From a virus, in the IMG/VR virus record IMGVR_UViG_3300027806_000136, positions 1-26,791 of that record: a DNA stretch of 26,791 nt; one strand, 5' to 3'. Positions 4,201-19,507 of this stretch are shown here, in pieces. The notes under the pieces were generated by a model. It did no database searches. It was not told where the DNA came from and saw only the letters and a program-made list of their open reading frames with translations. Positions within the stretch are counted from its first letter, which is position 1. The number at the start of each line of letters is the position of its first letter. Made by a program: the position numbers and the translations under genes.

Positions 4201-4240
4201 CACGAGTGAGGGCGAATTGCCCTAGTCGATATGGGGGATC

Positions 4241-4248
4241 AGGGAGAG
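4241..4248 (+). promoter_or_regulatory. Ribosome-binding site deciding the repressor start
   Basis: AGGGAGAG lies six bases before the ATG at 4255. This makes 4255 the better start than the in-frame ATG at 4231, which has no comparable site. Confidence 0.7.
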
Positions 4249-4254
4249 ATCAAA

Positions 4255-4857
4255 ATGATTGACACGCGTTGGCTGCTAAAGCGGATCGAAGAGAGGGGCG
4301 AAAGCATTGCGTCACTTGCTCGCGCCGTTGGGAGAGATCGCGCTGTCGTGCATCGCATTCTAAATGGCGATCAACCGATGCAACTTTGGATGACGCCAAT
4401 CCTATCGGAGAAACTTGGGATTACAGAGACGGAGCTTTTATCGAGATCGGGGGAATTGAACCTCCCGCCGTTGTCGTGCGCGCCTATCATTCCTTGGCAT
4501 TCCGTTGGCGCTTTTTCGATGACAAAGACGCACATAGAACTTTCGTCCAAATACGAAAGAATAGCGGTTCAAATCGATAGCGATACGCTGATCGCCGTTA
4601 GGGTAAGCGATAAGTCGATGGACGGTTTATTTCCGGAAGGATCAATCGTGGTCGCCGATTACTCGCAAAAAGACATTCATAATTACGAGGTCGGCATATT
4701 CACGAGTGCTGATCATTGCGTTCTGCGGCGCTATCGAGTGCAGCGGCGCAAGCCTTACCTCGTGGCCGAAAGCGTTGACGGCATCACGGAAGAAGAATTT
4801 TGCGGCGACATTATTGGTCGCGTCGTCGCCGTGCCTTTACTCTCACGTCATGCGTGA
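4255..4857 (+). CDS. S24/LexA-type phage repressor, 200 aa, apparently cleavage-deficient
   Basis: The N-terminal helix-turn-helix covers about residues 17-38 (SIASLARAVGRDRAVVHRIL). The C-terminal half is the LexA/CI peptidase S24 fold: VRVSDKSMDGLFPEGSIVVA carries the nucleophile-position serine S121, and GDIIGRVVAVP is the terminal strand. In LexA the catalytic lysine lies 37 residues after the serine. Here that position, 158, is arginine in CVLRRYRV. The Ala-Gly cleavage site is also missing; the aligned bonds read V84 G85 A86 F87. It is therefore predicted to dimerise and bind DNA but not to self-cleave in the SOS response. It likely acts on the CGTGAG-N5-CTCAYG operators around it. Confidence 0.85.
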   Translation: MIDTRWLLKRIEERGESIASLARAVGRDRAVVHRILNGDQPMQLWMTPILSEKLGITETELLSRSGELNLPPLSCAPIIPWHSVGAFSMTKTHIELSSKYERIAVQIDSDTLIAVRVSDKSMDGLFPEGSIVVADYSQKDIHNYEVGIFTSADHCVLRRYRVQRRKPYLVAESVDGITEEEFCGDIIGRVVAVPLLSRHA

Positions 4858-5348: not shown

Positions 5349-5584
5349 CCCTGATAATGAACGTCACCATTGCTAGCGCCGTCATGTCGGCAATCGGCTG
5401 GTCTTTGGTTTTCGCTGGTCTCTGGTTCTCCACGCGCGAACGCGTGGTCAAGCTGTTTGAGGGCGACAACCAAGCGACGATCTATCTCGATGAAGTTCTC
5501 GGCTTGAGCGGCCTCGTGCTGGCGCTCGCCTCATCCATCGCTTTCGTTTCAACCACAGTGCTGACGGTGATCAACAATGCTTAA
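5333..5584 (+). CDS. Two-helix membrane protein, 83 aa
   Basis: The GTG start has AAGGAAG about eight bases upstream. Two hydrophobic segments, about residues 9-31 and 57-79, flank a polar loop with RERVVKLFEGDNQ, which predicts a hairpin in the inner membrane. It is the first gene of the rightward recombination/lysogeny operon and overlaps the next gene by eight bases. Candidates are a superinfection-exclusion or envelope-modifying protein; nothing in the sequence decides between them. Confidence 0.65.
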   Translation: MSATHTLIMNVTIASAVMSAIGWSLVFAGLWFSTRERVVKLFEGDNQATIYLDEVLGLSGLVLALASSIAFVSTTVLTVINNA

Positions 5585-6485
5585 GCCTTCCGACTTCAAC
5601 GCATCATGCATTTCAGACATAGGCCACGACGAATATCACGCGGACCCTTGCCCCATCCCATCGCTGAACCACACGGTCGCAAAAATTCTGATCGAGCGTT
5701 CGCCGATGCACGCCTATCGCGCGCATCCTCGCCTTGGAGGAGAAAAAAATAAGTCCAATCGCGTCATGGATATTGGTTCGGCCGCGCACGCTATGGCGCT
5801 TGGCGTCGGTAATCCGGTTCGATCGCTGAAATTCAAAGATTTCCGCACGAAGGCGGCGCAGGAAACGCGCGACGCGATGCTTCAAAACGGCATCACGCCG
5901 TTGCTTGAAGACGATTACAACATGGTCCTCGCAATGGCTCCGCTGTTGCGCGCCGGTATCGAAGACGTCGCGGGCAAGTCGATTGATAACTTGCTTCGGG
6001 AAATATCCGTGTTCGGTCTCGAAGATGGCATGTGGTCGCGCTGCAAGCCGGACGCCATGACGGCAGACTTTCGCCTGATCATCGACGCCAAGACTACGTT
6101 GACGGCGCACCCGGAAGATTACTCGAAGAAGGTGTTGCACGATTACGCAACGGCCGTGGCGTTCACGTTCCAGACGCTTGATTTGCTTGATCCGGAGGGC
6201 GTCGGCAAACGTCGATATGTGTTCGTCGTTCAAGAGCGCGATTGCCCCGAGGCTATCACGTACCACGAACTTGATCCGACCATGTTGGAGATCGCGCAAA
6301 GCCAGATGCAGCGCGCGCGCCGACGTTGGGCGCATTGCGTCCGGACGAACGAATGGCCGGCATACGATCGCGGGCCGCACATGGCCGTTCCCCCTCAATA
6401 TATTGTCGATGAAGAAATGGGTCTCGCGCATGACGAAGCGATGGCCGCGCACGTCGAAGCGATGAAGAAGGGGGCTGTGCTTTGA
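5577..6485 (+). CDS. RecE-like PD-(D/E)XK exonuclease, 302 aa
   Basis: The family digests one strand of linear double-stranded DNA to make 3' single-stranded tails for annealing during phage recombination. The nuclease core reads E142 (LLREISVFG), D159 (RCKPDAM) and D170-A-K172 (IIDAKTT), then a helix with Y190 and the Q219-E220 pair of FVVQERD, the usual order for this superfamily. The N-terminal part has the DIGSAAHAMALG stretch typical of the RecE/exonuclease VIII-like phage group. The length fits stand-alone phage versions. It lies second in the rightward operon and is followed by two small genes that probably serve the same pathway. Confidence 0.85.
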   Translation: MLKPSDFNASCISDIGHDEYHADPCPIPSLNHTVAKILIERSPMHAYRAHPRLGGEKNKSNRVMDIGSAAHAMALGVGNPVRSLKFKDFRTKAAQETRDAMLQNGITPLLEDDYNMVLAMAPLLRAGIEDVAGKSIDNLLREISVFGLEDGMWSRCKPDAMTADFRLIIDAKTTLTAHPEDYSKKVLHDYATAVAFTFQTLDLLDPEGVGKRRYVFVVQERDCPEAITYHELDPTMLEIAQSQMQRARRRWAHCVRTNEWPAYDRGPHMAVPPQYIVDEEMGLAHDEAMAAHVEAMKKGAVL

Positions 6486-6799
6486 AAAACGATCCGAACA
6501 TGCAGCGCGTGTTGAAAAATAATCCGACCGGCTTCACGGCCCAGGATTTCACCGGCGCGCACGATGTGATCATGGGCGTCGGCGCGCTGTTGCAACACTT
6601 CAAGGATGGCGTTCTGCCGGCGATGGCGGAAGTCGTTCACAAGGATTTAAGCGACGCCAAGTCGCTCATGCTCACGCCGATCAAAAGGCGACGCGGGCGC
6701 AAGATGGTTCGCCTCTTACTTGCGGCCGAGATTTTGAAGAAGCGCGCCGCTGAAATGGCGCTGATCATGGACATTGTTGATCCGGAGGATGCACGTTGA
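6482..6799 (+). CDS. Conserved small recombination-operon protein, 105 aa
   Basis: It starts at TTG 6482, which shares TTGA with the nuclease stop; GAAGGGGG lies upstream as ribosome-binding site. The protein is helical with a basic patch KRRRGRKMVR around residues 68-77, consistent with nucleic-acid contact. I do not recognise the family. Its position between the RecE-like nuclease and the next gene suggests an accessory role in recombination. Confidence 0.65.
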   Translation: MKNDPNMQRVLKNNPTGFTAQDFTGAHDVIMGVGALLQHFKDGVLPAMAEVVHKDLSDAKSLMLTPIKRRRGRKMVRLLLAAEILKKRAAEMALIMDIVDPEDAR

Positions 6800-7461
6800 G
6801 TAACGTTGATATGGCGGCGACCATTGCGCCGAAGTCTGACCAATTGAATTCCGACGACCTAATCGCCGGCCCACGCACGATCACGATCACAAAGGTAACG
6901 GCGCGCGTATCGTCGCCGGAGCAACCGATCGCCGTCTTCTTTGAGGGCGACAACGGCAAGCCTTATCTGCCTTGCAAGTCGATGCGCCGCGTCATGGTCG
7001 CAGTTTGGGGCGTGAATTCAGAGGCATATATCGGTAAGGCGATGACGCTCTATCGTGATCCGAATGTGTTGTTCGGCGGCATCGCAGTCGGCGGCATTCG
7101 CATCAGTCACATGAGCGGCATCGATGGCGAGAAGTCGATGGCGCTTTCGACCGCCAAGACTAAGCGCGTTCAATACACGGTCGCTCCGTTGGTCGAACGC
7201 AAAGCCGCCAAGCCAGCGGAGAAGTCGAGCGAGCCTAAGCTTACGCTACTCGGCAAGAATGGTCCGACCCAGGTCGCGCCGGCCAAGTGGCAAAGCGCGC
7301 TAGTCGATGCAATCTCGAAGCTCCCCTTCGATCGCGCCAAGTCGATCTACGAAGACAACGCCGAGTACATCGAAGCGGCGCGCGCGACGCATCCGGAAGA
7401 AGCGGATCGCGTTGAAGCGGCGTGGCAGGATCGCCGCGACGACGCGGAGATTTCGATCTAA
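6796..7461 (+). CDS. Conserved phage protein beside the RecE-like nuclease, 221 aa
   Basis: A TTG start at 6796 shares TTGA with the preceding stop and has GGAGGAT upstream. Residues 28-125 look like a compact beta-rich domain: ITITKVTARVSSPEQPIAVF, then CKSMRRVMVAVWG, then GKAMTLYRDPNVLFGG and GIRISHMSGI. I recall near-identical signatures in alphaproteobacterial prophages, where they are unannotated. The C-terminal half is a linker and helices rich in Lys and Glu. Being next to a RecE-like nuclease it may fill the ssDNA-binding or annealing role, but no RecT, Red-beta or Erf motif is visible. Confidence 0.7.
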   Translation: MSNVDMAATIAPKSDQLNSDDLIAGPRTITITKVTARVSSPEQPIAVFFEGDNGKPYLPCKSMRRVMVAVWGVNSEAYIGKAMTLYRDPNVLFGGIAVGGIRISHMSGIDGEKSMALSTAKTKRVQYTVAPLVERKAAKPAEKSSEPKLTLLGKNGPTQVAPAKWQSALVDAISKLPFDRAKSIYEDNAEYIEAARATHPEEADRVEAAWQDRRDDAEISI

Positions 7462-8039
7462 TGGGTACGAGCAAAGCTCAGCTATTGCCGTGGACGCCAG
7501 AGAACAAGGCGCTCTTGATCAAACTCTTTGACGTTGACGGGCAGTCGCAATCCTTCTGCGCAAAGAAGATGACGGAGGTAATGGGCCGTCCGGTTTCGGT
7601 TAGCGCAATCGCGGGACAAATCCGCGTGTTGCGCCAATCGGGACGCATGCAATGGACGCGCCCGGAGGACACTCAACGCCGTGTGCGTCGAGATAACAAC
7701 GCGCGGCTCCGGCACAAGTCGAAGAAGGGGGAGACGAACACAAAGAAGAAAGAGCCGCCGCCGCCAAAGCCTTCGCTTGTTCGCGAAGACTTGTTGTCGC
7801 CCATCTCGCAAGAAGACGGCTCGGCAATGAACTACGACACGATGCGTCCCGGCCGATGCTTGTTTATGTTCGGCGATCCGAAGTTTGAATTTTCATTCTG
7901 CGGACGGCCGGTGTCATCGGAGCGCGGCCCTTGGTGCGCGGGGCATCATCGCGTTTGCTACCAAGAAGGAACGTCACGCAAAGCAAAGCGCGCGCCGGAC
8001 GACAAGAAGGCAATCGCAAACGCAAAATTTAATTGGTGA
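7461..8039 (+). CDS. GcrA-like cell-cycle regulator homologue, 192 aa
   Basis: GcrA of alphaproteobacteria binds RNA polymerase sigma-70 region 2 and activates promoters marked by GANTC methylation. The C-terminal domain matches the sigma-interacting domain closely: CLFMFGDP (133-140), then EFSFCGRPV (143-151), then GPWCAGHHRVCYQ (156-168), with the conserved Cys/His pattern C..........FCG.......C..H...YQ. The N-terminus has WTPENKALLIKLF, the GcrA-like opening, then a longer helix-turn-helix-like region through residue 62. The middle is a basic, Lys/Pro-rich linker, as in GcrA. It starts at ATG 7461, overlapping the previous stop by one base. Confidence 0.82.
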   Translation: MGTSKAQLLPWTPENKALLIKLFDVDGQSQSFCAKKMTEVMGRPVSVSAIAGQIRVLRQSGRMQWTRPEDTQRRVRRDNNARLRHKSKKGETNTKKKEPPPPKPSLVREDLLSPISQEDGSAMNYDTMRPGRCLFMFGDPKFEFSFCGRPVSSERGPWCAGHHRVCYQEGTSRKAKRAPDDKKAIANAKFNW

Positions 8040-8043
8040 TCGT

Positions 8044-8358
8044 GTGATCAAACTCTTGACTATCCGTGAGGTATGCTCACGTATGAAGAGAAGCCGCGCC
8101 ACGCTCTACCGGCGAATTAAAGCAGGGAGTTTCCCCGCTGCATTCGAGCCGGGGCGTTGGCGTGAAAGCGATGTGGACGCGCACATAGAAAAACGCGCGC
8201 CACAGTCACCGGCTTGGGAGGTGGATCATGTTGCTATCGAAGCTGCCCTTACACGTAGTCGCGCGCGGACCACGCCAAGACGGAACGTTCAACGTAATGT
8301 TCCGCGTCCGGAAGGATCGCCCCCGAGATTGGCCGTCGTCAATTCCGATCCCGTTTGA
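8044..8358 (+). CDS. AlpA/excisionase-like DNA-binding protein, 104 aa
   Basis: GTG at 8044 is the only start that keeps the whole domain; it follows the GcrA-like stop by four bases. Residues 6-47 form the MerR-like winged helix of AlpA/Xis proteins: LTIREVCSRMKRSRATLYRRI, then GSFPAAFEPGRWRESDVDAHI. These proteins bend DNA at attachment sites or activate integrase genes. The 3' end overlaps the integrase by 131 bases in another frame. A repressor operator lies within codons 8-13, and an in-frame ATG at 8083 could give a shorter product lacking the start of the domain. Confidence 0.75.
   Translation: MIKLLTIREVCSRMKRSRATLYRRIKAGSFPAAFEPGRWRESDVDAHIEKRAPQSPAWEVDHVAIEAALTRSRARTTPRRNVQRNVPRPEGSPPRLAVVNSDPV
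8056..8081 (+). promoter_or_regulatory. Internal repressible promoter inside the excisionase gene
   Basis: TTGAC (8056-8060), then four bases, then operator CGTGAG-GTATG-CTCACG (8065-8081), the same architecture as the sites at 4099-4127 and 4865-4891. Transcripts starting here would lack the 5' end of the excisionase gene and so would express integrase without full excisionase. Confidence 0.6.
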
Positions 8359-9358
8359 TCGGCGACGCGGCAACCTATCCGATCCGGCCGAAGTATCCCG
8401 CATTCTAGCCGACGCGGCCAAGCTGACGGAGCGCCTTGAACGCGAGCGCGCCGGTGAGAAGGGCGATCGTCCGGACGCCGGAACCATGCCGGCCGTCGCC
8501 GCCGCGTGGCAAGCGTCGTGGGAGGGGGATATCCGGCCGCGAACTCAGGAAGCCTATCGCAAAAGCCTACGTCCGCTTCTGGCGTGGTCGTCTGTATTGA
8601 GACACCCGCCCGTCGCCCTGCTGACGTTGCCGCAAATCCTCACGTTCCTTGCCGGCTATAAGGATCGACCAGCGCAGCAAGCGGCGCTGCGACGTTGCTT
8701 GTCGGCGATGCTATCCTTTGCCCGCGCGCACGGCATCATTGACACACACCCGCTCGGCGTGCCGGTGCGGATCAAGCGCGCCAGGATGCAGCGCAAGCGC
8801 GCCGTCGATCTATGGGACGCGAAGATAACCCAAGCCTATGCCGACGAAGCCGACCGCCTTGGATGGCGCGGGCTGGCGAACATGCTGCATCTCATGTGGG
8901 AGACGTCGGCCGATGCGACGGACGTCGTGACGTGGCGCAATGGTGCGAACCTCCCGCCAGATCGTGACGTTATCGATTACACGCGAGGGAAAACGGGGGA
9001 GCGCTGCGTTATCCCGATCAGCGCCGCGCTCGCCGCGCGCCTTCGCAAGTTTGGCTTGATGCTCGTCACCGATCCGGCCGGCCGTCCCTATAAGGCCGAG
9101 TGCATCAAGAGCGACAACCAGCGTGGCGGGCATTTCCGCGTGCTGCGGAAGCGCATCATCGACGCCGGCGGGCCGTCGCGTGTGCTCGATCACTTGCGAC
9201 ACAGCGCCGTGACGGACGCGCTCACGAAGGGCGCGAAGCTGGAACACTTGCCGTCGCTGACGGCGCACCGTGGCGAGCAAATGGTTGAGGCTATCTATTC
9301 ACAGATGACGGAAGCGCAGGCGCGCGCTGTCCAGATCGCCCGAGGGATTATCGATTGA
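8228..9358 (+). CDS. int: Tyrosine site-specific integrase, 376 aa
   Basis: It catalyses recombination between attP and the host attB. GGGAGGTGG just upstream supports the ATG at 8228. Residues 1-75 form an N-terminal arm-binding region (GTFNVMFRVRKDRP), and about 85-185 a SAM-like core-binding domain. The catalytic domain has K255 in YTRGKTGERCVIPI, R324 in DHLRHSA, H347 in LTAHRGE and the nucleophile Y357 in EAIYSQM. Odd: the first catalytic arginine, expected in the TG.R...L pattern, is Asp229 in WETSADATDVV. The gene ends 77 bases before a tRNA-derived att core, the usual place for attP. Confidence 0.9.
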   Translation: MLLSKLPLHVVARGPRQDGTFNVMFRVRKDRPRDWPSSIPIPFDRRRGNLSDPAEVSRILADAAKLTERLERERAGEKGDRPDAGTMPAVAAAWQASWEGDIRPRTQEAYRKSLRPLLAWSSVLRHPPVALLTLPQILTFLAGYKDRPAQQAALRRCLSAMLSFARAHGIIDTHPLGVPVRIKRARMQRKRAVDLWDAKITQAYADEADRLGWRGLANMLHLMWETSADATDVVTWRNGANLPPDRDVIDYTRGKTGERCVIPISAALAARLRKFGLMLVTDPAGRPYKAECIKSDNQRGGHFRVLRKRIIDAGGPSRVLDHLRHSAVTDALTKGAKLEHLPSLTAHRGEQMVEAIYSQMTEAQARAVQIARGIID

Positions 9359-9394: not shown

Positions 9395-9499
9395 GCTTTC
9401 CGTTCCAAGCCTAAGTGTTTGGAATTAAAGCAAAAGGGTGATTAGCTCAGTTGGTAGAGCAGCTGACTCTTAATCACACGACGTCGAGCCGTAAGTTAT
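9372..9499. repeat. Inverted repeat flanking the att core
   Basis: ATAACTTAC (9372-9380) and GTAAGTTAT (9491-9499) are exact inverted copies on either side of the tRNA-derived core. They could be excisionase or integrase arm sites. Confidence 0.5.
9436..9476 (+). other. attP core: 5' half of a tRNA-Lys(CTT) gene
   Basis: Forty-one bases match the 5' half of an alphaproteobacterial tRNA-Lys: acceptor strand GGGTGAT, D-arm GCTC-AGTTGGTA-GAGC, anticodon stem GCTGA, and loop CTCTTAA with anticodon CTT. From 9477 on the sequence no longer follows a tRNA; there is no T-arm and no matching acceptor strand. It is therefore not a working tRNA. Its place just past the integrase gene marks it as the attachment core. 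The single GANTC of the window (GACTC, 9465-9469) is inside it. Confidence 0.75.
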
Positions 9500-10661: not shown

Positions 10662-13277
10662 TCAACGGCCCCACGAGCCCCAAAGCTCCTGATCCTGATC
10701 CTCCATATCCAAGGTTCCCAGGTCCGGCGAACCCATGTCCGCGCCGTCGCCCGGCCCCCACCAATAGCCCTGTTCAACGCGGCGCGCGCGGCGCGCAAAA
10801 TCGGCTTCGGCTTCGGGGTCAACCATACGCTGCATGTTGTCCCAAACCAGACGTTCCATCGCCGTGTCCGTTGCCCAATGGCGCGGGACGAAGTTCTTCA
10901 CCGTGCGGATTGCTTGCCGGCCGGTGTGTGTTTCATCTTCGCCGCCGGATAGCGCGGTCCCGGCTTCGGTGCCGACGTCTTTGACCAGCGTGGCGACGTC
11001 GAGCAATGCCGACACGGTAGGTCCGCCGGCTTGGCCGGCCGCTTGAACCGTCGTGTCAGCATCGGTCATCCCTCGAATGTAATCGTGAAAGAAGCCGAGC
11101 GACACGGATTTCCAGAACACGCGATTGACGAACTCCGGATCGGAAACGTCCGGCGCTTCCTTGCCTTGCAACACGTCCGAGATGATGACGCCAAGCCCCA
11201 CGAGAACCATACTCGGCATAACCATCCCGAGAAGGTAGTAGCCTGCGCCGGCCGCGAAGCCGCGCGTTCCTTTGCCGTTGGCGTGAAAGATTTCCGCCGC
11301 GCGATACGCGTGGTGTTGGAAGTGTGAGATCGAATAGGTTTTGAGTTTGGCGATCGACCCCAGTACCGTGCCGGTGATAGAGCCCGGCTTGAAAGGGATC
11401 ACGCGCGCCGAACGTGGCGTGCCGCTAATCGTCGCCGCTTCGCCTTCCTCTTGGATCAGCGTTAAAAGCCGGATTGAAACCTCTTCGCCTTCCGTTAATC
11501 CGGGGCGCGCGCGAACGTTTGAATTCACTATCGAGACGCCAGCGATTTCACCAGGGCCGATCACGTTCACACCCCGGCGGTTCACGCGCGGCGCGGCTTG
11601 AATTATGGCCCATGCATCGGCGTCGATATCGTAGCGTTCAAGCATTGTGCGAAACGCTGGCGGCAGTTTGTCGAATGCAGTGTTAGCGTGGCGCGTCACC
11701 TCATGAAGCACGCCCATCGTCCACATAGCGCGCAAGCCCATCGTCATCGGTTTAAGGCCGGTGTAGGTGAGGGCGCGGTCGGTGACGTATTGCGAGATTG
11801 GCGAGCCGAGAACCGTCGCGTGATCGCGCGCCTCGGCGTTCATCACAGATAAGCCCGCGTCGATTTCAACGCCAAGCTCAACCAGCGTTTGTGGATCGGT
11901 CGAAAGCTTCACCGCGTTTACGAGATCGCGCATCATGCCTTGCACGGATAGCGAGCGGAACGCGCGCGTCGCCGCTTGGTTCACGACGTCACTCCCGATA
12001 AGGAACGGCGTGAACGCGAGCATCTTCGCATACATAAGATTGTTGATCGTGCCTTCGACGTGAGCCCAACCTTTGTTGAGAGGGCGTCGCGCTTCGCCAA
12101 CGAAGTAATTCCAGGCGCGTTGTGTGGCGACTGACTTGTCGGTCGCGTACTGCAATCGGCTTTCGGTTGTCAGCTTACGGCCGATATCATCCATCGTCGG
12201 GAATAGCGAAGGCTTCCCCATTTCCGCTTGCTGCGCTTCATAAAGGATCATGCCTCCCACGTTCTCGCCGTCGCCAGCGAGGTAGCGGATCGTGCCGTTT
12301 GAATGCGGCCCGAGGTATTGCATCGCCGCTAGATCGTGATTGATCGTGCGAAGATAGCTCGTCATCGCTTCGAACGGGTTCACGCCCGAGCCAAAGCGAC
12401 TGCTATATTCCATCCATGACGACGCATCTTTGAACACGATCATGCGAGGGTCGGCGTGACGACGCCATGTCGCCGTCCCGTATGTGCCTTGCATCGTCGG
12501 CTTCTCTTTGCTCGCCTGCGATGTGATCGACGTCCAAGCTTCGTCAAGAAAGTCTTCGAACTCCACCGCCGAGAACGGCATCCCGGTTTCAGGGTTCGTC
12601 ATCTTCGCCATGTCAACGCGGGCGCGAATGTAATTCTTCCATTCGTCAATGCCGGCGCGAGCAACGCGTATTGCATCGTGCGTCTGTGCCAAGTGCCAAT
12701 CAGCGCGAAACGAAACATTGCCGCCGGCTTGATTGAACTGATCAATCTTGCGGGCAGAGATACGACGCCACGCGTCGGCGAATGCCTTAGCTGTAGCGTC
12801 TCCGGTGTTCTCACCGAATAGCTCGCGAACAACCAAGTCCATGCGCGCGCGATTGTGACGCACGCCGCTAATCGGCGTTTTTCGGAACTCATGCATCATC
12901 GCGCTAAGTTCTGCGAGATCGAGCTTCGCCAAAGCTTGCGCGCGAAAGTGAACGCGGTTGATCAATTGAAGCGCGTACTCGCCCACATCGACTTCGCCCT
13001 TGCGATTACGGAAGCGCGCCATATCCGCGTCGATGCGGTCGATTGCCTCTTGCTGCAAGCGCGCGACGATCTTGCGATGCTGCGCAAGCGCGATCATTCC
13101 ATTCAAAACGGCTTGGTTCGCTGTTCTCTCCGCTGATAGATTGCCGTGCGGCGTGCCACCGCCGGCCGCTGCGGCTGCGGCGTACTCTCTCGCCCATAGC
13201 CGTTCCATCGCTTTGCGGTCCTGTTGGTGCAATCGCCCCACGGCTGCGGCGGTTCGTGTGCATTTGATGATAGCCAT
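10662..13277 (-). CDS. Large internal virion (ejection) protein, 871 aa
   Basis: The start overlaps the stop of the 2076-aa gene (TAATG). The protein is mostly helical and rich in Ala, Arg and Glu. A membrane-seeking run FTPFLIGSDVVNQAAT lies mid-protein, and a strong hydrophobic segment lies near residues 673-705 (YYLLGMVMPSMVLVGLGVII). The end is acidic and Trp-rich (DQDQELWGSWGR). In T7-like and BPP-1-like phages the last large late protein plays the part of gp16: ejected first, it helps form the channel through the cell envelope. Assignment rests on size, gene order and membrane segments; no lytic transglycosylase motif is seen. Confidence 0.65.
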   Translation of the reverse strand: MAIIKCTRTAAAVGRLHQQDRKAMERLWAREYAAAAAAGGGTPHGNLSAERTANQAVLNGMIALAQHRKIVARLQQEAIDRIDADMARFRNRKGEVDVGEYALQLINRVHFRAQALAKLDLAELSAMMHEFRKTPISGVRHNRARMDLVVRELFGENTGDATAKAFADAWRRISARKIDQFNQAGGNVSFRADWHLAQTHDAIRVARAGIDEWKNYIRARVDMAKMTNPETGMPFSAVEFEDFLDEAWTSITSQASKEKPTMQGTYGTATWRRHADPRMIVFKDASSWMEYSSRFGSGVNPFEAMTSYLRTINHDLAAMQYLGPHSNGTIRYLAGDGENVGGMILYEAQQAEMGKPSLFPTMDDIGRKLTTESRLQYATDKSVATQRAWNYFVGEARRPLNKGWAHVEGTINNLMYAKMLAFTPFLIGSDVVNQAATRAFRSLSVQGMMRDLVNAVKLSTDPQTLVELGVEIDAGLSVMNAEARDHATVLGSPISQYVTDRALTYTGLKPMTMGLRAMWTMGVLHEVTRHANTAFDKLPPAFRTMLERYDIDADAWAIIQAAPRVNRRGVNVIGPGEIAGVSIVNSNVRARPGLTEGEEVSIRLLTLIQEEGEAATISGTPRSARVIPFKPGSITGTVLGSIAKLKTYSISHFQHHAYRAAEIFHANGKGTRGFAAGAGYYLLGMVMPSMVLVGLGVIISDVLQGKEAPDVSDPEFVNRVFWKSVSLGFFHDYIRGMTDADTTVQAAGQAGGPTVSALLDVATLVKDVGTEAGTALSGGEDETHTGRQAIRTVKNFVPRHWATDTAMERLVWDNMQRMVDPEAEADFARRARRVEQGYWWGPGDGADMGSPDLGTLDMEDQDQELWGSWGR

Positions 13278-16200
13278 TAGCGGCAGTGCTCCAACATCGT
13301 GACAACGCGATCTAGCCGTTCCGCTTCGGCGCGCGCAACGCTCGCTGGATTGTTTGGGTCGATGCGATCGGAACCGGCCGGCCGCACCGCTTCACCGTTG
13401 AACATAACGATTTGTTCTTGCGGTCCGAACTCGCCAGCATCGACGGCGCGAATGTAAACACCGTTCGCGCCGTCGCGCTGCGCTGCGGCGATGATGCTAT
13501 CGAAGTCAGCCTTCGTCCGCACCGGGGTATCGCTCGCGTCGTAGATTGGGCCGCGCACTTCATACGCCTCAATGTCGCCGGCAAGGCCAGCGTTCTTTAC
13601 GTTCGGCGTGGTGAACATTAGCCCGTCTTGCGCGCGCTTGCTCTTGCCAAGATAGACGCGCGTTTGAAGCCAGCCGCTTTCCGCCTCTGTGACCGCTTCG
13701 GCAAGGATGCGCGGCTTGTCGCGAAGCATGTCGCGCAAGCGAACCGGGATCGAGCGAACGTCTATCGTGCGCGGTTCGGTGTTCGCCGCGTGACGTAGCG
13801 CGCCCATCGCGAGGAATTGCATATCTTCAAACGTCAGCGCGCGGTCAAGGTGTCGCGTCCAAGGCAGAGTGCGCCACGCCCACGCGCGAACCGAATTGAT
13901 CACGCGCATAACGAAGCCACGGAAGCCGTCGCTCATTTGGTCCGGATCGGCGTAGGTCAAGGCATACGCCACCGCCTCGCTCCACACTTGGCTTTCCGGA
14001 GTGCCGCGCTTCACTGCGATATTGTAGCCCGACACAATGTCCGCGTCGCCGGCTTCGTAAAGTTTACGCGCGTCCATCAAGAAGCGATCATAGCCTTCGG
14101 GGCCAAGCATCTCCGGCATACCAACGTGCTCGCCCACCTCGTGAAGCGTAATGCCGCGCACCAATTCAGGGGGGAGATTGTCGGCGACAAGCCACGATTG
14201 CCCGCCTTCGGAGTAACCAACCGTCCCGTTCGCTCGCGCGAATGCACCACGACGCGGCGGCGATTGCAGTTTGCTTTCGACGTTCTCGATTAGATCGAAG
14301 CGCGCATCATTCAGCGCGCGTTGCTTATCCGCGAGCGCCGCCGTGCGTGGCGTGCGTGTCTGCGGAGCCAACGCGTTAAGCTGTTGCTGATTGTAGCCGC
14401 CGCCGCTCTCGAAGCCGTTCTTCTCGGCAATGTCGCTACGGATAACGGCGATGCCGTCGCTCATACCTTTCTTGCTGACGACGCGAACTTTCACGTAGCC
14501 GGCTGGCGGATCGATTGCATCGAACATGCGTGAATACAGGGAGCGATGCTTCTCCGTCAGCCCAACGAAGCGATAGACCGGGCGCGAGAATTGCGCGGCG
14601 TCGCGGTCTATCGCGGCGGTTGCCATCGAGAGAGTTTCGATCGCACTTGACAGACCTTCGCCGACCTTCGCGTCGATGACTTGAACGCCGCCCGGTTTAA
14701 GGATGCCGAAGTTCACGACGGCCGACGCGCGCGGATCGATTGCCACGATCTCCGCTGCCATTGCGCGACCGGTGGACGAACGCCACGCATAGATATCAGT
14801 GAACCCGAGCCCTTCGCCTTCTGAAATGCGAATGCTTTCGAGCGCATCGGCCAAGGGCCTACGCTCTGCCGGCCCCTTCACCGCATCGAACAAGCGAGCA
14901 TAGAAACCGCGACCGCTGTCCGGCAATTCGCTGACGGACTGCACAACGGTAAGACGCCCGCGCTCCAATAACTTCTTGCCGTAGCGCGGGAAGTCGCGCT
15001 GCAATTGGCGCATGACGTTTGCGACGCTGTTCTTCGGCGCGCGTGGCGCTGCATCGGCCGACGCAAAGCGCACGTTGCGCGGGCGTGAGTAGGCGCGAAG
15101 TCCCTCTTCGCCTTCGCCACCGTCGAACGCCGCCATAAGATCGGCAAGTGCGGCGTCAGCCGTCTTCAACGCTTCCTGATTAGACGCATCGACGTCAGCG
15201 CCTAGCTCGCTTTGCCACTCATCCCAAAGCTCATCCATGTTGCGGCGAAGCTTGGCGATAAGGGGAACGACCTCATCGACGACGCTGTAAGGGTCGCGGT
15301 ATTTCGACCCCTCATCCGGAAGGTCACTCCAAAGCGCGCCGGCGCGGTCGCGTATTTCCTCCGAGACTTCGGGCCACTCTAGGCTTTCGTTGGGCGTGTC
15401 GCGTTCGCTGTCGATGTGGTTAAGAAGATCGTGAAAATCTTCGTACCACATCGACGCGTTTTCGCCGAGTTCATTGAGCGCTAGTGAGACGTCTTCTCCG
15501 ACGAACATATCATCGAAGTTTGAGAGAATGGCGTCTAAGTCTTCATCCCAATTGTCTTTGAACCAATCGGGGTCAGAATTAATGATCTCTTCGAGTAGCG
15601 CGCGCCATTCGCCTTTCTTTGCAACAACGACGTCTGATAGTGTGGAGATGTTTTCAAGTTCTTCGCTGCGAATTTTGCGGATCGCTTCGATTGGTTCGGT
15701 AACACCAACCGGGAGGCTATTCGTCTCGCGCTGCAATTTTTCAATTGCCTCTTGGAACACACCCCAAGGCGCATCAAAGCTATCGAATGCATATCCAACA
15801 CTTGACGGGTCGGCATCGGATATGCGCTTCGACGCACCGTCACCGATAGCAAACTGCCCGGAGCGCGCACGCTCAACCTCTCGAAGCACCTTCTTGCGCG
15901 AGCCGAACGGCGCGTCTTCAATCGCGCGCTCCAACCACTTCTTACCCTTGTCGCCCATGCGATCGATTGCATCGATCAGATCGGCGCGCGCGTCGGCGTA
16001 GCGCTGCACTGCATCTTCGCGATCAACGAAGCGAGCCGCGCGCTTGATGAACTCATTCACCTCTGACGTTGACGGAGCGGGGCGCTTCACCGGAACGACG
16101 GGCGGCGGCGGTTGAACGCCGTTCGTGTCGCGCCACTCTTGCGTGAACTGCGAAAGGAATTCGGCGCGCGTGCGGGCATTGCCGTCGCCCACCGGAAACA

Positions 16201-19200
16201 TGCGCTGGATTTTATCAAGCTGCGGGATCGTCGCGCTTTCGATTGCGGCGATCAGCTTGGCTTCATCCTCGAAGTCGAGCGGGTTCCAAATCTCAATCTT
16301 GGCGTTCTGTTCAACCGCTTCGGCGTGCGTGGCCGGAGCGTCGCCCGTCGTGTCGCCGCGCAAACGTGCGCGCGCTTCCGTCTCCATATCCGGAGTAGGG
16401 CGCGCGTAAATTGCAAGTGCGACGTCCGGAACCGTAGGATCATCAATGCCAAGCGCGTCGAGCGCCGCTTCGATGCGGATCATGTCGGCTTCCGGAACGT
16501 GGCCGATCGCATCCGGCTCCGGCATGTCGGCCATATCGCCACGCATGGCGCGCTCAATGGCGATCTCTGCGAGCGCTTGGCGGAACGCTTCGCCGTCCGC
16601 GTCGTGCGCGTTAGCCAAGTCTGCGGCGCGCTCGTGCTCTTGCATACGCTGTTGCGGCGGATCATTGATCGGTCGCGGCGGGTTTACCTCTGGCGGGCGC
16701 TCTTGCATGAGACCGATCAAACCGCGCTCATTCAGCAAATCGACAAGCCCAGCGACAAAGCGATCGGACGCAATCTCCGGCTTAATCTTCTCGCGTGCCG
16801 CTGTGTCGGCGATCTCTCGAAGCAAGCGCGACACCGCACTAGGCCGCGTTGCGAGCATATCGAGATTGCGAAGCAGGGCTTCGGCTAGGTCGGCGCGGCG
16901 CGCACTCTCTTCCTTGCGAATGATATTGCCGGCGCTTTCGAGCACGTCAGCGTTGCGAGCCGCGACGTCAAACAAGCGCTTGTCGTTTCGCAGCGTGTTT
17001 CCGGCAATGCGCAGAATTTCGGCGCGCTCGCGCATTCCGGAAAGTTCCGGAGCGTCGCCGAACATGGACAATTGCGCCGCTTCCGAACGGAACACTTCGG
17101 CTTGCATCGCCTCATGCACGATAAACGAAGCCTCGCGCACAGAGCGCGGCGGCTGTTGCTGGAACATCGTGATCAGCGGTTCATGGATTTCAGGGCGTGA
17201 TCCGGCGATCTCGCCAATTGCGGCCGCAAAGTTCGGATCAACAACGCCGGCGCGCACCGCTGCGAAGGCTGCATCGCTAAGCTTCGAGATGCCGGCGGCG
17301 ACGCGGAAACCGCGACTGCGCTGCGGAACCGAACTATCGATTAGCTCCGGCGCTTCGCGGAGCAATTGCGCCGTGTCGATTGGATCGCCGGGCGTCTCGC
17401 GCAAGTTCTTCTGCGCTGCGAGATTGCGAACCTCGCGCGTCGTCCATCCGTCCGCTTCTCGATAAAGGTAGCCGTCGAGCCAAACGTTCGCTTGCCCGGC
17501 TTGCGCGGCCGATCGTGCGAGTGCGCGGCGCTGGTGTCCGTCCGCAATGACGCGGCGACCATCGGCGTACTCAAACACCTTGACCTTGCCGGCGCTTGCG
17601 GGATCGAACGTCTCAACGCCTTCAAGCACGCCGGTCAATCCGTCCGCGCCTTGTGATCGCTTGTATTGGAACGTTTCAGCGTCGGCTTCGATCTCACGCG
17701 GATCGAAGCGCATAAACGTTCGCTGGCGCTCTTGACCGTTGAAGCGGATTGTTTCGACCGTACCGGGATCGGGGGCGGGAGTGTCGTCCGCTGCGGCTCG
17801 CGCGGCCGAGACCTCACCCTCTTCGGCAACGCGAACCGGCCGCGCCTCAACCGGGAACTGATCGCTTTCGCCGTTGATGAAACGATCGGCCGCGTTGATG
17901 TAGTCGGCCAATGCGATCGGATCGGCGACGTCCGGATCGGGGAACGTGCGCGCCGTCGCCGCGTCTCGGCTATATGCAGAGACAACAAGGCTTTCCGCTT
18001 GGCCGGTAAGCGCGCGCTGAATGTCGCCGCCCGGCACATCATCAAGAGCTTTTGGAGTGAGAGGAAACACTTCTCTGGGGCGAAAGATAATAACATCCTC
18101 GCCCACGGAAAACCCATCGAAACCAGCGGCTCGCATCGCCTCTTGATTGTATCTGCCGTTTTTAAAGAATGGCCGCGCGTCCTCTCTATTAGCAATCCGC
18201 AAGTTAGCTGTTACTTCGCGAACGTAGTCGCTCCCGCCAGCCTCGGCGTACCTCTGAGACCTTTCACGATCGCGTGCAAAGAATGTCGGCACATTGTTGA
18301 ATTCCCCAAACGGCCCACTACTTGACCCATGATAAAGCGTCATCGGCCGCGACGGCGGCAATTGCACGCCACCAGTATTGTCGGCATCGCGCGCTGAATT
18401 TCGCCCCTCTGTCACATCATTGGGGGTAACGTCAGGCAACGTCTCGCCTTGGCGAAGGCGAAAGATTTGGTCGGCTAGTCGGTCGATTTCCGCCTGATCA
18501 ACAACCGTGAGCGTTTGGCCTTCGACCGTCACCGGGGCGCTGTCGCCTCCATCGTTAAGCCTGCGGATATTTTCTTGAAGCGACGCCACCCGCGCGCGGA
18601 GCGGCGGGGTATCCATTTCAATCGGCGGGGCATCGCCCGGCGCGTCGAGAACACCGCCAGCAACGTCGATCGCTGCGCCAAAGCCGGCGGCGATGATGAA
18701 GTCCAGCGCGATTTGTTCGCCAGAATATTCCTCGCCCATGCGTCGAGCGTCTTCGATCAAAACAGGTTCGATCACCGCTTGACCAACAATGTTCGACAAA
18801 GCGCCGGAGATAGCTCGCTCCGCCAGCGTCATGCCGCGCGCTGCGCCACCGGACGCAAGCTGTGCAATTTGCTCCGGCGATCCAGAAGACAAGCCGCCAA
18901 CGATCATACCCGGAGCGCCGAGCACGCCGCGCACTAGCTGATTAACCGAGTTGTCGTCGCCAAGGTATCGGTGATAGTCGTCGGTGACGTCCCGGCGCAA
19001 TTGAGCGGCTAACGCATCGACGCGCGCGCGGTCTCCGTAGCGCTCCTGAATTGCAGCAAGGCGCGGGTCGGATGCGGCGAGACGCGCAAGCTCCGCGTGC
19101 CACTGCATACGCGGATCGTTGACGGCCGACGCATATCGATCCGTTCCGGTGCCGCTCGTGTTGAGAATTTCTCGATTGAAGTAATCGCCGATGCCGTCAG

Positions 19201-19507
19201 CGACTAGCGGATTGCCGAGACGTTGCCCCGTAATCCGGAACACTTCGTCGTCAGCATCATCGTAAACGTCGCCAAGCGCAGTGATATTGCTGCGCGTGTT
19301 GTCGCGATATCGACCATAGCGAAAGTTCGTGACTTGATCGTAGGCAAGCTGCGGATTGCCCGCCACCATGAGCGCCGGGTTGCCGCTCGATCGAAGCAAC
19401 GCGTCTGTGACGATTTGCCGGGGATTGACGGAAAGCGCCGCCTCTGGCGGGCTCCCTTGCTCTACGTCTTCGTCCTCGGTGCGGTCGGTGAATTGTAGCC
19501 CATTCAT
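13277..19507 (-). CDS. Giant polyvalent virion protein, 2076 aa (ADP-ribosyltransferase-, ParB- and metallopeptidase-like regions)
   Basis: The start shares ATGA with the preceding 755-aa gene. Residues 1-290 are an N-terminal region with hydrophobic helices (about 190-290). About 388-485 reads as an ADP-ribosyltransferase-like domain, with LYHGSSSGPF, PTFFARDRERSQRYA and AAGFDGFSVGEDVIIFRP. About 585-700 is ParB-like with RVIADGHQRRALA (652-664). Residues 1226-1383 are acidic and Trp-rich and lie in low-GC DNA. A zincin-like motif TLHEVGEHVGMPEMLG spans 1787-1802. About 1945-2041 ends like a second transferase fold (GANGVYIRAVDAGE, EQIVMFN). This domain mixture is the hallmark of the polyvalent, DarB-like proteins that phages inject with their DNA against host defences. 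Confidence 0.75.
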   Translation of the reverse strand: MNGLQFTDRTEDEDVEQGSPPEAALSVNPRQIVTDALLRSSGNPALMVAGNPQLAYDQVTNFRYGRYRDNTRSNITALGDVYDDADDEVFRITGQRLGNPLVADGIGDYFNREILNTSGTGTDRYASAVNDPRMQWHAELARLAASDPRLAAIQERYGDRARVDALAAQLRRDVTDDYHRYLGDDNSVNQLVRGVLGAPGMIVGGLSSGSPEQIAQLASGGAARGMTLAERAISGALSNIVGQAVIEPVLIEDARRMGEEYSGEQIALDFIIAAGFGAAIDVAGGVLDAPGDAPPIEMDTPPLRARVASLQENIRRLNDGGDSAPVTVEGQTLTVVDQAEIDRLADQIFRLRQGETLPDVTPNDVTEGRNSARDADNTGGVQLPPSRPMTLYHGSSSGPFGEFNNVPTFFARDRERSQRYAEAGGSDYVREVTANLRIANREDARPFFKNGRYNQEAMRAAGFDGFSVGEDVIIFRPREVFPLTPKALDDVPGGDIQRALTGQAESLVVSAYSRDAATARTFPDPDVADPIALADYINAADRFINGESDQFPVEARPVRVAEEGEVSAARAAADDTPAPDPGTVETIRFNGQERQRTFMRFDPREIEADAETFQYKRSQGADGLTGVLEGVETFDPASAGKVKVFEYADGRRVIADGHQRRALARSAAQAGQANVWLDGYLYREADGWTTREVRNLAAQKNLRETPGDPIDTAQLLREAPELIDSSVPQRSRGFRVAAGISKLSDAAFAAVRAGVVDPNFAAAIGEIAGSRPEIHEPLITMFQQQPPRSVREASFIVHEAMQAEVFRSEAAQLSMFGDAPELSGMRERAEILRIAGNTLRNDKRLFDVAARNADVLESAGNIIRKEESARRADLAEALLRNLDMLATRPSAVSRLLREIADTAAREKIKPEIASDRFVAGLVDLLNERGLIGLMQERPPEVNPPRPINDPPQQRMQEHERAADLANAHDADGEAFRQALAEIAIERAMRGDMADMPEPDAIGHVPEADMIRIEAALDALGIDDPTVPDVALAIYARPTPDMETEARARLRGDTTGDAPATHAEAVEQNAKIEIWNPLDFEDEAKLIAAIESATIPQLDKIQRMFPVGDGNARTRAEFLSQFTQEWRDTNGVQPPPPVVPVKRPAPSTSEVNEFIKRAARFVDREDAVQRYADARADLIDAIDRMGDKGKKWLERAIEDAPFGSRKKVLREVERARSGQFAIGDGASKRISDADPSSVGYAFDSFDAPWGVFQEAIEKLQRETNSLPVGVTEPIEAIRKIRSEELENISTLSDVVVAKKGEWRALLEEIINSDPDWFKDNWDEDLDAILSNFDDMFVGEDVSLALNELGENASMWYEDFHDLLNHIDSERDTPNESLEWPEVSEEIRDRAGALWSDLPDEGSKYRDPYSVVDEVVPLIAKLRRNMDELWDEWQSELGADVDASNQEALKTADAALADLMAAFDGGEGEEGLRAYSRPRNVRFASADAAPRAPKNSVANVMRQLQRDFPRYGKKLLERGRLTVVQSVSELPDSGRGFYARLFDAVKGPAERRPLADALESIRISEGEGLGFTDIYAWRSSTGRAMAAEIVAIDPRASAVVNFGILKPGGVQVIDAKVGEGLSSAIETLSMATAAIDRDAAQFSRPVYRFVGLTEKHRSLYSRMFDAIDPPAGYVKVRVVSKKGMSDGIAVIRSDIAEKNGFESGGGYNQQQLNALAPQTRTPRTAALADKQRALNDARFDLIENVESKLQSPPRRGAFARANGTVGYSEGGQSWLVADNLPPELVRGITLHEVGEHVGMPEMLGPEGYDRFLMDARKLYEAGDADIVSGYNIAVKRGTPESQVWSEAVAYALTYADPDQMSDGFRGFVMRVINSVRAWAWRTLPWTRHLDRALTFEDMQFLAMGALRHAANTEPRTIDVRSIPVRLRDMLRDKPRILAEAVTEAESGWLQTRVYLGKSKRAQDGLMFTTPNVKNAGLAGDIEAYEVRGPIYDASDTPVRTKADFDSIIAAAQRDGANGVYIRAVDAGEFGPQEQIVMFNGEAVRPAGSDRIDPNNPASVARAEAERLDRVVTMLEHCR

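Follow-up and report, generated by a model that had tools for sequence, protein, structure and literature searches.

A divergent GcrA-family protein with replaced recognition residues in a GANTC-poor phage

GcrA is an alphaproteobacterial protein, a regulator of the host cell cycle that normally reads GANTC sites. In Caulobacter crescentus it combines a tri-helical DNA-binding domain, a basic linker and a sigma-interacting domain (PDB 5yiu, 5yix and 7ye1). Phages also carry homologues, among them gp222 of phiCbK, and a host-directed action has been proposed for them (PMC3556154). GANTC depletion has been reported for pelagiphages (PMC9516812), and sinorhizobial phages have been described with their own GANTC methyltransferases (PMC5537653). 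As far as the accessible portions of the last two reports go, the hosts in both are alphaproteobacteria that methylate GANTC, the phages adjust to this mark, and neither report describes a GcrA.

The phage studied here, represented by a viral record whose analysed stretch of 26,791 nucleotides is called the window below, differs from those phages, as described in those portions, in carrying a GcrA-like gene, and from the sinorhizobial ones also in having removed GANTC rather than methylating it. Its protein has the layout of Caulobacter GcrA, with approximately 23-34% identity depending on the alignment, but all four invariant residues of the recognition helix are replaced and the WP of the sigma motif has become FM. 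phiCbK is a large phage with no lysogeny genes annotated in the stretch examined, whereas the window gene adjoins the excisionase and integrase genes of a temperate phage. Moreover, the GcrA-family protein of phiCbK, whose GANTC content is 0.16 of expectation, retains K39 and R42, and that of the window neither. The Rhizobium phages RHph_X2_24, P106B and RHph_TM3_14A share with the window phage a near-total loss of GANTC and the avoidance of much the same hexamers. The GcrA of RHph_X2_24 retains R33 and R42, P106B lacks GcrA, and RHph_TM3_14A has only a protein resembling the sigma-interacting domain. The openly licensed literature thus already describes both GcrA homologues in phages and phages poor in GANTC, and the window protein is a divergent variant.

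The gene, its phage and its surroundings

The GcrA-like open reading frame starts with ATG and encodes 192 residues without an internal stop. The Pfam GcrA profile (PF07750) matches residues 11-175 and so spans both domains, with 49.4 bits against a cut-off of 26.9. By contrast, the NCBIfam equivalog model for GcrA, NF050816, gives 59.6 bits against a cut-off of 280. As this score lies far below the threshold, the function may differ from that of the cell-cycle GcrA. By its sequence the protein is a relative of GcrA, in agreement with the initial annotation, and its status as a cell-cycle GcrA proper is not established. The scan of genome contigs returned no match to the protein itself.

The gene belongs to a packed run on the + strand, in the order repressor, exonuclease, genes without assigned function, GcrA-like gene, excisionase and integrase (Table 1). 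It had been placed in a 'lysogeny operon'; its position directly before the excisionase and integrase genes and downstream of a repressor-like gene bears this out, but the term is only loosely apt. On the minus strand, a 2,076-aa protein (13277-19507) has one 290-residue match, to phrog_10691 of unknown function.

Table 1. Positions of genes, protein domains and the probable attachment core in the window
Feature	Position	Strand	Basis
CI/LexA-like repressor gene	4231..4857	+	phrog_4; Pfam Peptidase_S24, weak HTH matches
RecE-like exonuclease gene	5577..6485	+	phrog_412 E 1.1e-46; NCBIfam exodeoxyribonuclease VIII weak
Gene without assigned function; stop overlaps the GcrA-like ATG by one base	6796..7461	+	phrog_11517 E 3.5e-52
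GcrA-family gene	7461..8039	+	Pfam GcrA E 8.7e-13; phrog_12262 E 2.1e-11; PDB 7ye1 E 8.6e-10
N-terminal HTH DNA-binding domain, ~residues 9-62	7485..7646	+	fold match to 5yiu; conservation in 34 chromosomal GcrAs
Basic linker, mostly low-confidence, ~residues 63-120	7647..7820	+	pLDDT mostly 52-72; charge count
Sigma-interacting domain, ~residues 121-170	7821..7970	+	fold match to 5yix_B; C133, C147, C159, H162 kept
Excisionase-like gene	8044..8358	+	phrog_66 E 2.1e-9; Pfam HTH_17 E 2.4e-9
Tyrosine integrase gene	8228..9358	+	phrog_1 E 1.5e-16
Probable attachment core, 41 bp	9436..9476	+	identical to 5' part of tRNA-Lys genes

The 41-bp segment 3' of the integrase gene is, from its sequence, likely the attachment core. 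It has at least 118 exact matches in bacterial genomes, and those listed fall in tRNA-Lys genes, with many groups of alphaproteobacteria represented besides a few other bacteria. The phage is temperate, and its host is probably an alphaproteobacterium. The window recurs in full, with mismatches at 2 of 26,791 bases, in a second record, G001 (38,293 bp), which beyond it carries terminase, connector and capsid genes; the terminase is 29-34% identical to those of BcepC6B and of a pelagiphage. For the integrase, 397 genomes of one order held no match at 1e-30, and 385 genomes of the class held one weak match; the terminase had one match. Several metagenome records (L031, L032 and L033, besides G001) encode a tail protein 100% identical to that of this phage. 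These near-identical records may reflect either a widespread clone or a contaminant.

Predicted fold and conserved residues

With 16 viral relatives as input, AlphaFold gave a model whose mean pLDDT is 75; most of the DNA-binding domain lies at 93-97 and the sigma-interacting domain at 84-91. The N-terminal part of the model superposes on the solved GcrA DNA-binding domain (5yiu) over 49 residues, at an rmsd of 1.4 and a VIA-align Z of 8.1. For the C-terminal part and the solved sigma-interacting domain (5yix_B), the corresponding figures are 46 residues, rmsd 1.2 and Z 6.0, with a Foldseek TM of 0.82 by target length. Between them, residues 63-120 hold 15 K+R against 9 D+E. The N-terminal part had been called longer and divergent, and indeed approximately five extra residues separate helices 2 and 3, with the tri-helical fold of GcrA retained.

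Small-terminase HTH domains of phages matched this N-terminal part with a similar Z (8.6) in the structure search, so that the fold match of the DNA-binding domain taken alone has no identifying power. The tri-helical fold is a common one, and we set the small-terminase identity aside because GcrA is favoured by the sequence as well as by the presence of the second domain.

Conservation was assessed against 34 chromosomal GcrAs picked by profile, taking as conserved the positions with at least 85% agreement. The window protein retains 11 of 25 such positions in the DNA-binding domain; for the linker and the sigma-interacting domain together, the count is 12 of 16. The comparison with chromosomal GcrA suggested at the outset thus turned out well for the sigma part, which is mostly kept, and poorly for the DNA-binding part. 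In the former, the claim of a well-kept C-terminal signature needs a correction: the motifs cited for it (CLFMFGDP, FCGRPV and WCAGHHRVCYQ) are present, but four nearly invariant positions are changed (W to F135, P to M136, Y to W158 and A to C166). As the WP of the sigma-binding motif is among them, sigma binding could be altered.

The most telling differences lie in the DNA-reading helix. All 34 chromosomal GcrAs share R/K33, N34, K39 and R42 (Caulobacter numbering), and in the window protein these are V47, S48, Q53 and V56. The fold-defining positions A49, G52 and L57 are retained. This replacement gives concrete form, at the level of sequence, to the earlier idea of a new DNA specificity. 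Viral GcrAs generally keep these residues, with at least three of the four present in 53 of 65. The sole other viral protein with none is that of phage Bajun, for which the alignment took the second of its tandem domains.

Several other viral GcrA-like genes are of note. That of the Brevundimonas phage Bajun (L011 10524-11231) apparently encodes two tandem DNA-binding domains followed by a sigma-interacting domain. In Phaeobacter phage MD18 (L010 13219-13593), a 124-aa protein corresponds to the DNA-binding part only (66.6 bits), and its gene lies directly 3' of that for DNA polymerase III epsilon. The low-GC viral contigs L027 and L257 (25% and 42% GC) carry GcrA-like genes with a TVGA-type recognition helix and have ordinary GANTC levels. 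GcrA genes also occur in two phages labelled as cyanobacterial, Synechococcus phage Ssp-JY42 (L006) and Yong-M4-211 (H23). Because GcrA is alphaproteobacterial, these host labels may be wrong.

The alteration of many conserved positions might be taken to mean that the gene is a decaying relic without present function. We find this improbable, as the frame is intact and coupled to its neighbours in a tight run, both predicted domain folds are intact, and the cysteines and the histidine of the sigma domain are retained.

The better preservation of the sigma-interacting domain relative to the DNA-binding domain speaks for the main rival explanation, in which the protein competes for sigma-70. It would sit where GcrA binds sigma region 2, thereby blocking host GcrA-dependent transcription, with its DNA-binding half playing a minor part. 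Some weight is added by RHph_TM3_14A, whose protein EVB41_066 resembles the sigma-interacting domain alone, with 23.3 bits, under the Pfam cut-off. However, the HTH fold, superfluous for a pure competitor, has been retained and is confidently predicted, and the linker is still basic, so that we regard mere competition as unlikely. The gene for EVB41_066 (MN988472 36568-36783; also L318 1069-1284), annotated as encoding 71 aa, lies close to a RecB-family exonuclease gene.

GANTC depletion and its relation to GcrA carriage

The near-absence of GANTC noted initially is confirmed. The motif occurs once in the window against 138 expected from shuffles, and three times in G001 against 189 expected, although the dinucleotide expectation overstates the contrast, since bacterial loci with the same tRNA core (at least 118 listed, mostly alphaproteobacterial) themselves stand at 0.33 of it, with 1.54 GANTC per kb. 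None of the 118 bacterial core loci listed has zero GANTC. When codons were shuffled within the 18 main ORFs, 0 GANTC were observed against 52.5 expected, with a minimum of 35 in 200 shuffles. The GANTC content of the phage is far under the sequence expectation and below the level of the bacterial loci. The sole GANTC of the window, at 9465-9469, lies inside the 41-bp tRNA-Lys-identical core, where it could presumably hardly be changed without loss of identity to the host site.

Other palindromes are avoided as well. In the window, CCGCGG (0 observed, 28 expected), GGCGCC (0, 24), GTCGAC (0, 11), CTCGAG (0, 10) and GAGCTC (0, 9) are all missing, and over the window and G001 together the phage lacks the first four and nearly lacks GAGCTC. 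As several six-base palindromes are missing along with GANTC, this looks like a general avoidance of sites. The stretches of phiCbK, Colossus and Bajun lack CCGCGG, CTCGAG and GAGCTC, with GGCGCC and GTCGAC present. The PF01555 N6/N4 methyltransferase profile had no match in the window record or G001. In G001, NPPY turned up in a motif scan, within a frame of 187 codons whose surroundings are not clearly those of a methyltransferase; the profiles covered part of the small ORFs.

It had been implied that the carriage of GcrA and the loss of GANTC are connected. If this were one linked system, phages carrying GcrA would purge GANTC because of it, as the window, RHph_X2_24 and contig L015 might suggest, all three combining an altered-helix GcrA with GANTC observed/expected ratios of at most 0.02. 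The wider comparison goes against such a connection. The rhizobial phage P106B (KF977490, 56 kb) has 0 GANTC against 198 expected and no GcrA detectable by Pfam, and RHph_TM3_14A (MN988472, 52.9 kb) has 0 against 191. The GcrA-bearing RHph_X2_24 has 4 against 191, in an assembled sequence that overlaps itself by 301 bases. Most GcrA-bearing viral contigs have ordinary GANTC levels, and the median observed/expected ratio is 0.31 both in 65 viral GcrA loci and in eight controls without GcrA (Mann-Whitney p 0.85), the latter being few and hand-picked, with near-duplicate phages retained and kinship ignored in the statistics. Conversely, contigs L231, L241, L254 and L255 are nearly GANTC-free despite retaining K39 and R42. 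A narrower association, between an altered helix and near-zero GANTC (3 of 7 against 9 of 58), was a post hoc comparison and is not significant (Fisher p 0.11), and we do not retain it. As a general rule, the linked system is largely refuted and, in our view, highly improbable.

As GANTC is also missing from related phages without GcrA, its loss seems to be separately caused. The GANTC purge is best read as unrelated to GcrA and as a means of evading enzymes that mark or cut DNA at specific sites.

These data also bear on the role proposed for the phiCbK homologue and other published phage GcrAs. A host-directed mimic would read methylated GANTC in the host genome and push the cell toward replication, with the phage DNA itself GANTC-free; the purge might then ensure that the phage's own DNA is no competitor for the protein. 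Yet all four host-invariant residues of the recognition helix are replaced, which makes a phiCbK-like role at host GANTC promoters less likely, and GANTC loss does not track GcrA across phages. We consider this role rather unlikely for the window protein.

A possible sigma-70 cofactor with changed specificity

Taken together, the retained sigma domain and HTH fold, the replaced reading residues and the scarcity of GANTC in the genome suggest a sigma cofactor with changed specificity. The reading that we favour, at close to even chances, is that the protein is a phage-adapted sigma-70 cofactor with a changed, probably methylation-independent DNA specificity, the GANTC purge being a separate adaptation. 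Its C-terminal domain would bind the primary sigma factor, while the N-terminal HTH would bind DNA with a specificity shifted away from methylated GANTC. Such a cofactor would recruit the RNA polymerase of the host to promoters, of the phage or of the host, that carry a different sequence. The shedding of GANTC and of several other palindromes might meanwhile allow escape from CcrM marking or from restriction enzymes cutting at these sites.

A changed specificity would be in keeping with a phage genome in which the protein would find hardly any GANTC. The promoter scan did no better than chance and yielded no candidate for a new binding motif or promoter. It is tempting to speculate that the reading of methyl-GANTC has been lost altogether and that an epigenetic regulator has become a methylation-independent factor that guides the polymerase of the host to a new sequence, but we hold this to be somewhat doubtful. 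The window protein may conceivably also redirect the host cell cycle, as raised in the initial annotation.

Two aspects appear worth following: the replacement of the recognition-helix residues, and the finding that rhizobial phages, whether or not they have a GcrA, can be wholly free of GANTC. Should the specificity indeed be a new one, a comparison with the host GcrA would reveal which residues read the methyl mark, and it would tell whether activators that act through sigma region 2 are retargetable by means of a small HTH. As for the loss of GANTC, two rhizobial phages free of the motif (0 against approximately 190-198 expected), one with and one without a GcrA-like gene, make the penalty of carrying GANTC in a methylating host testable.
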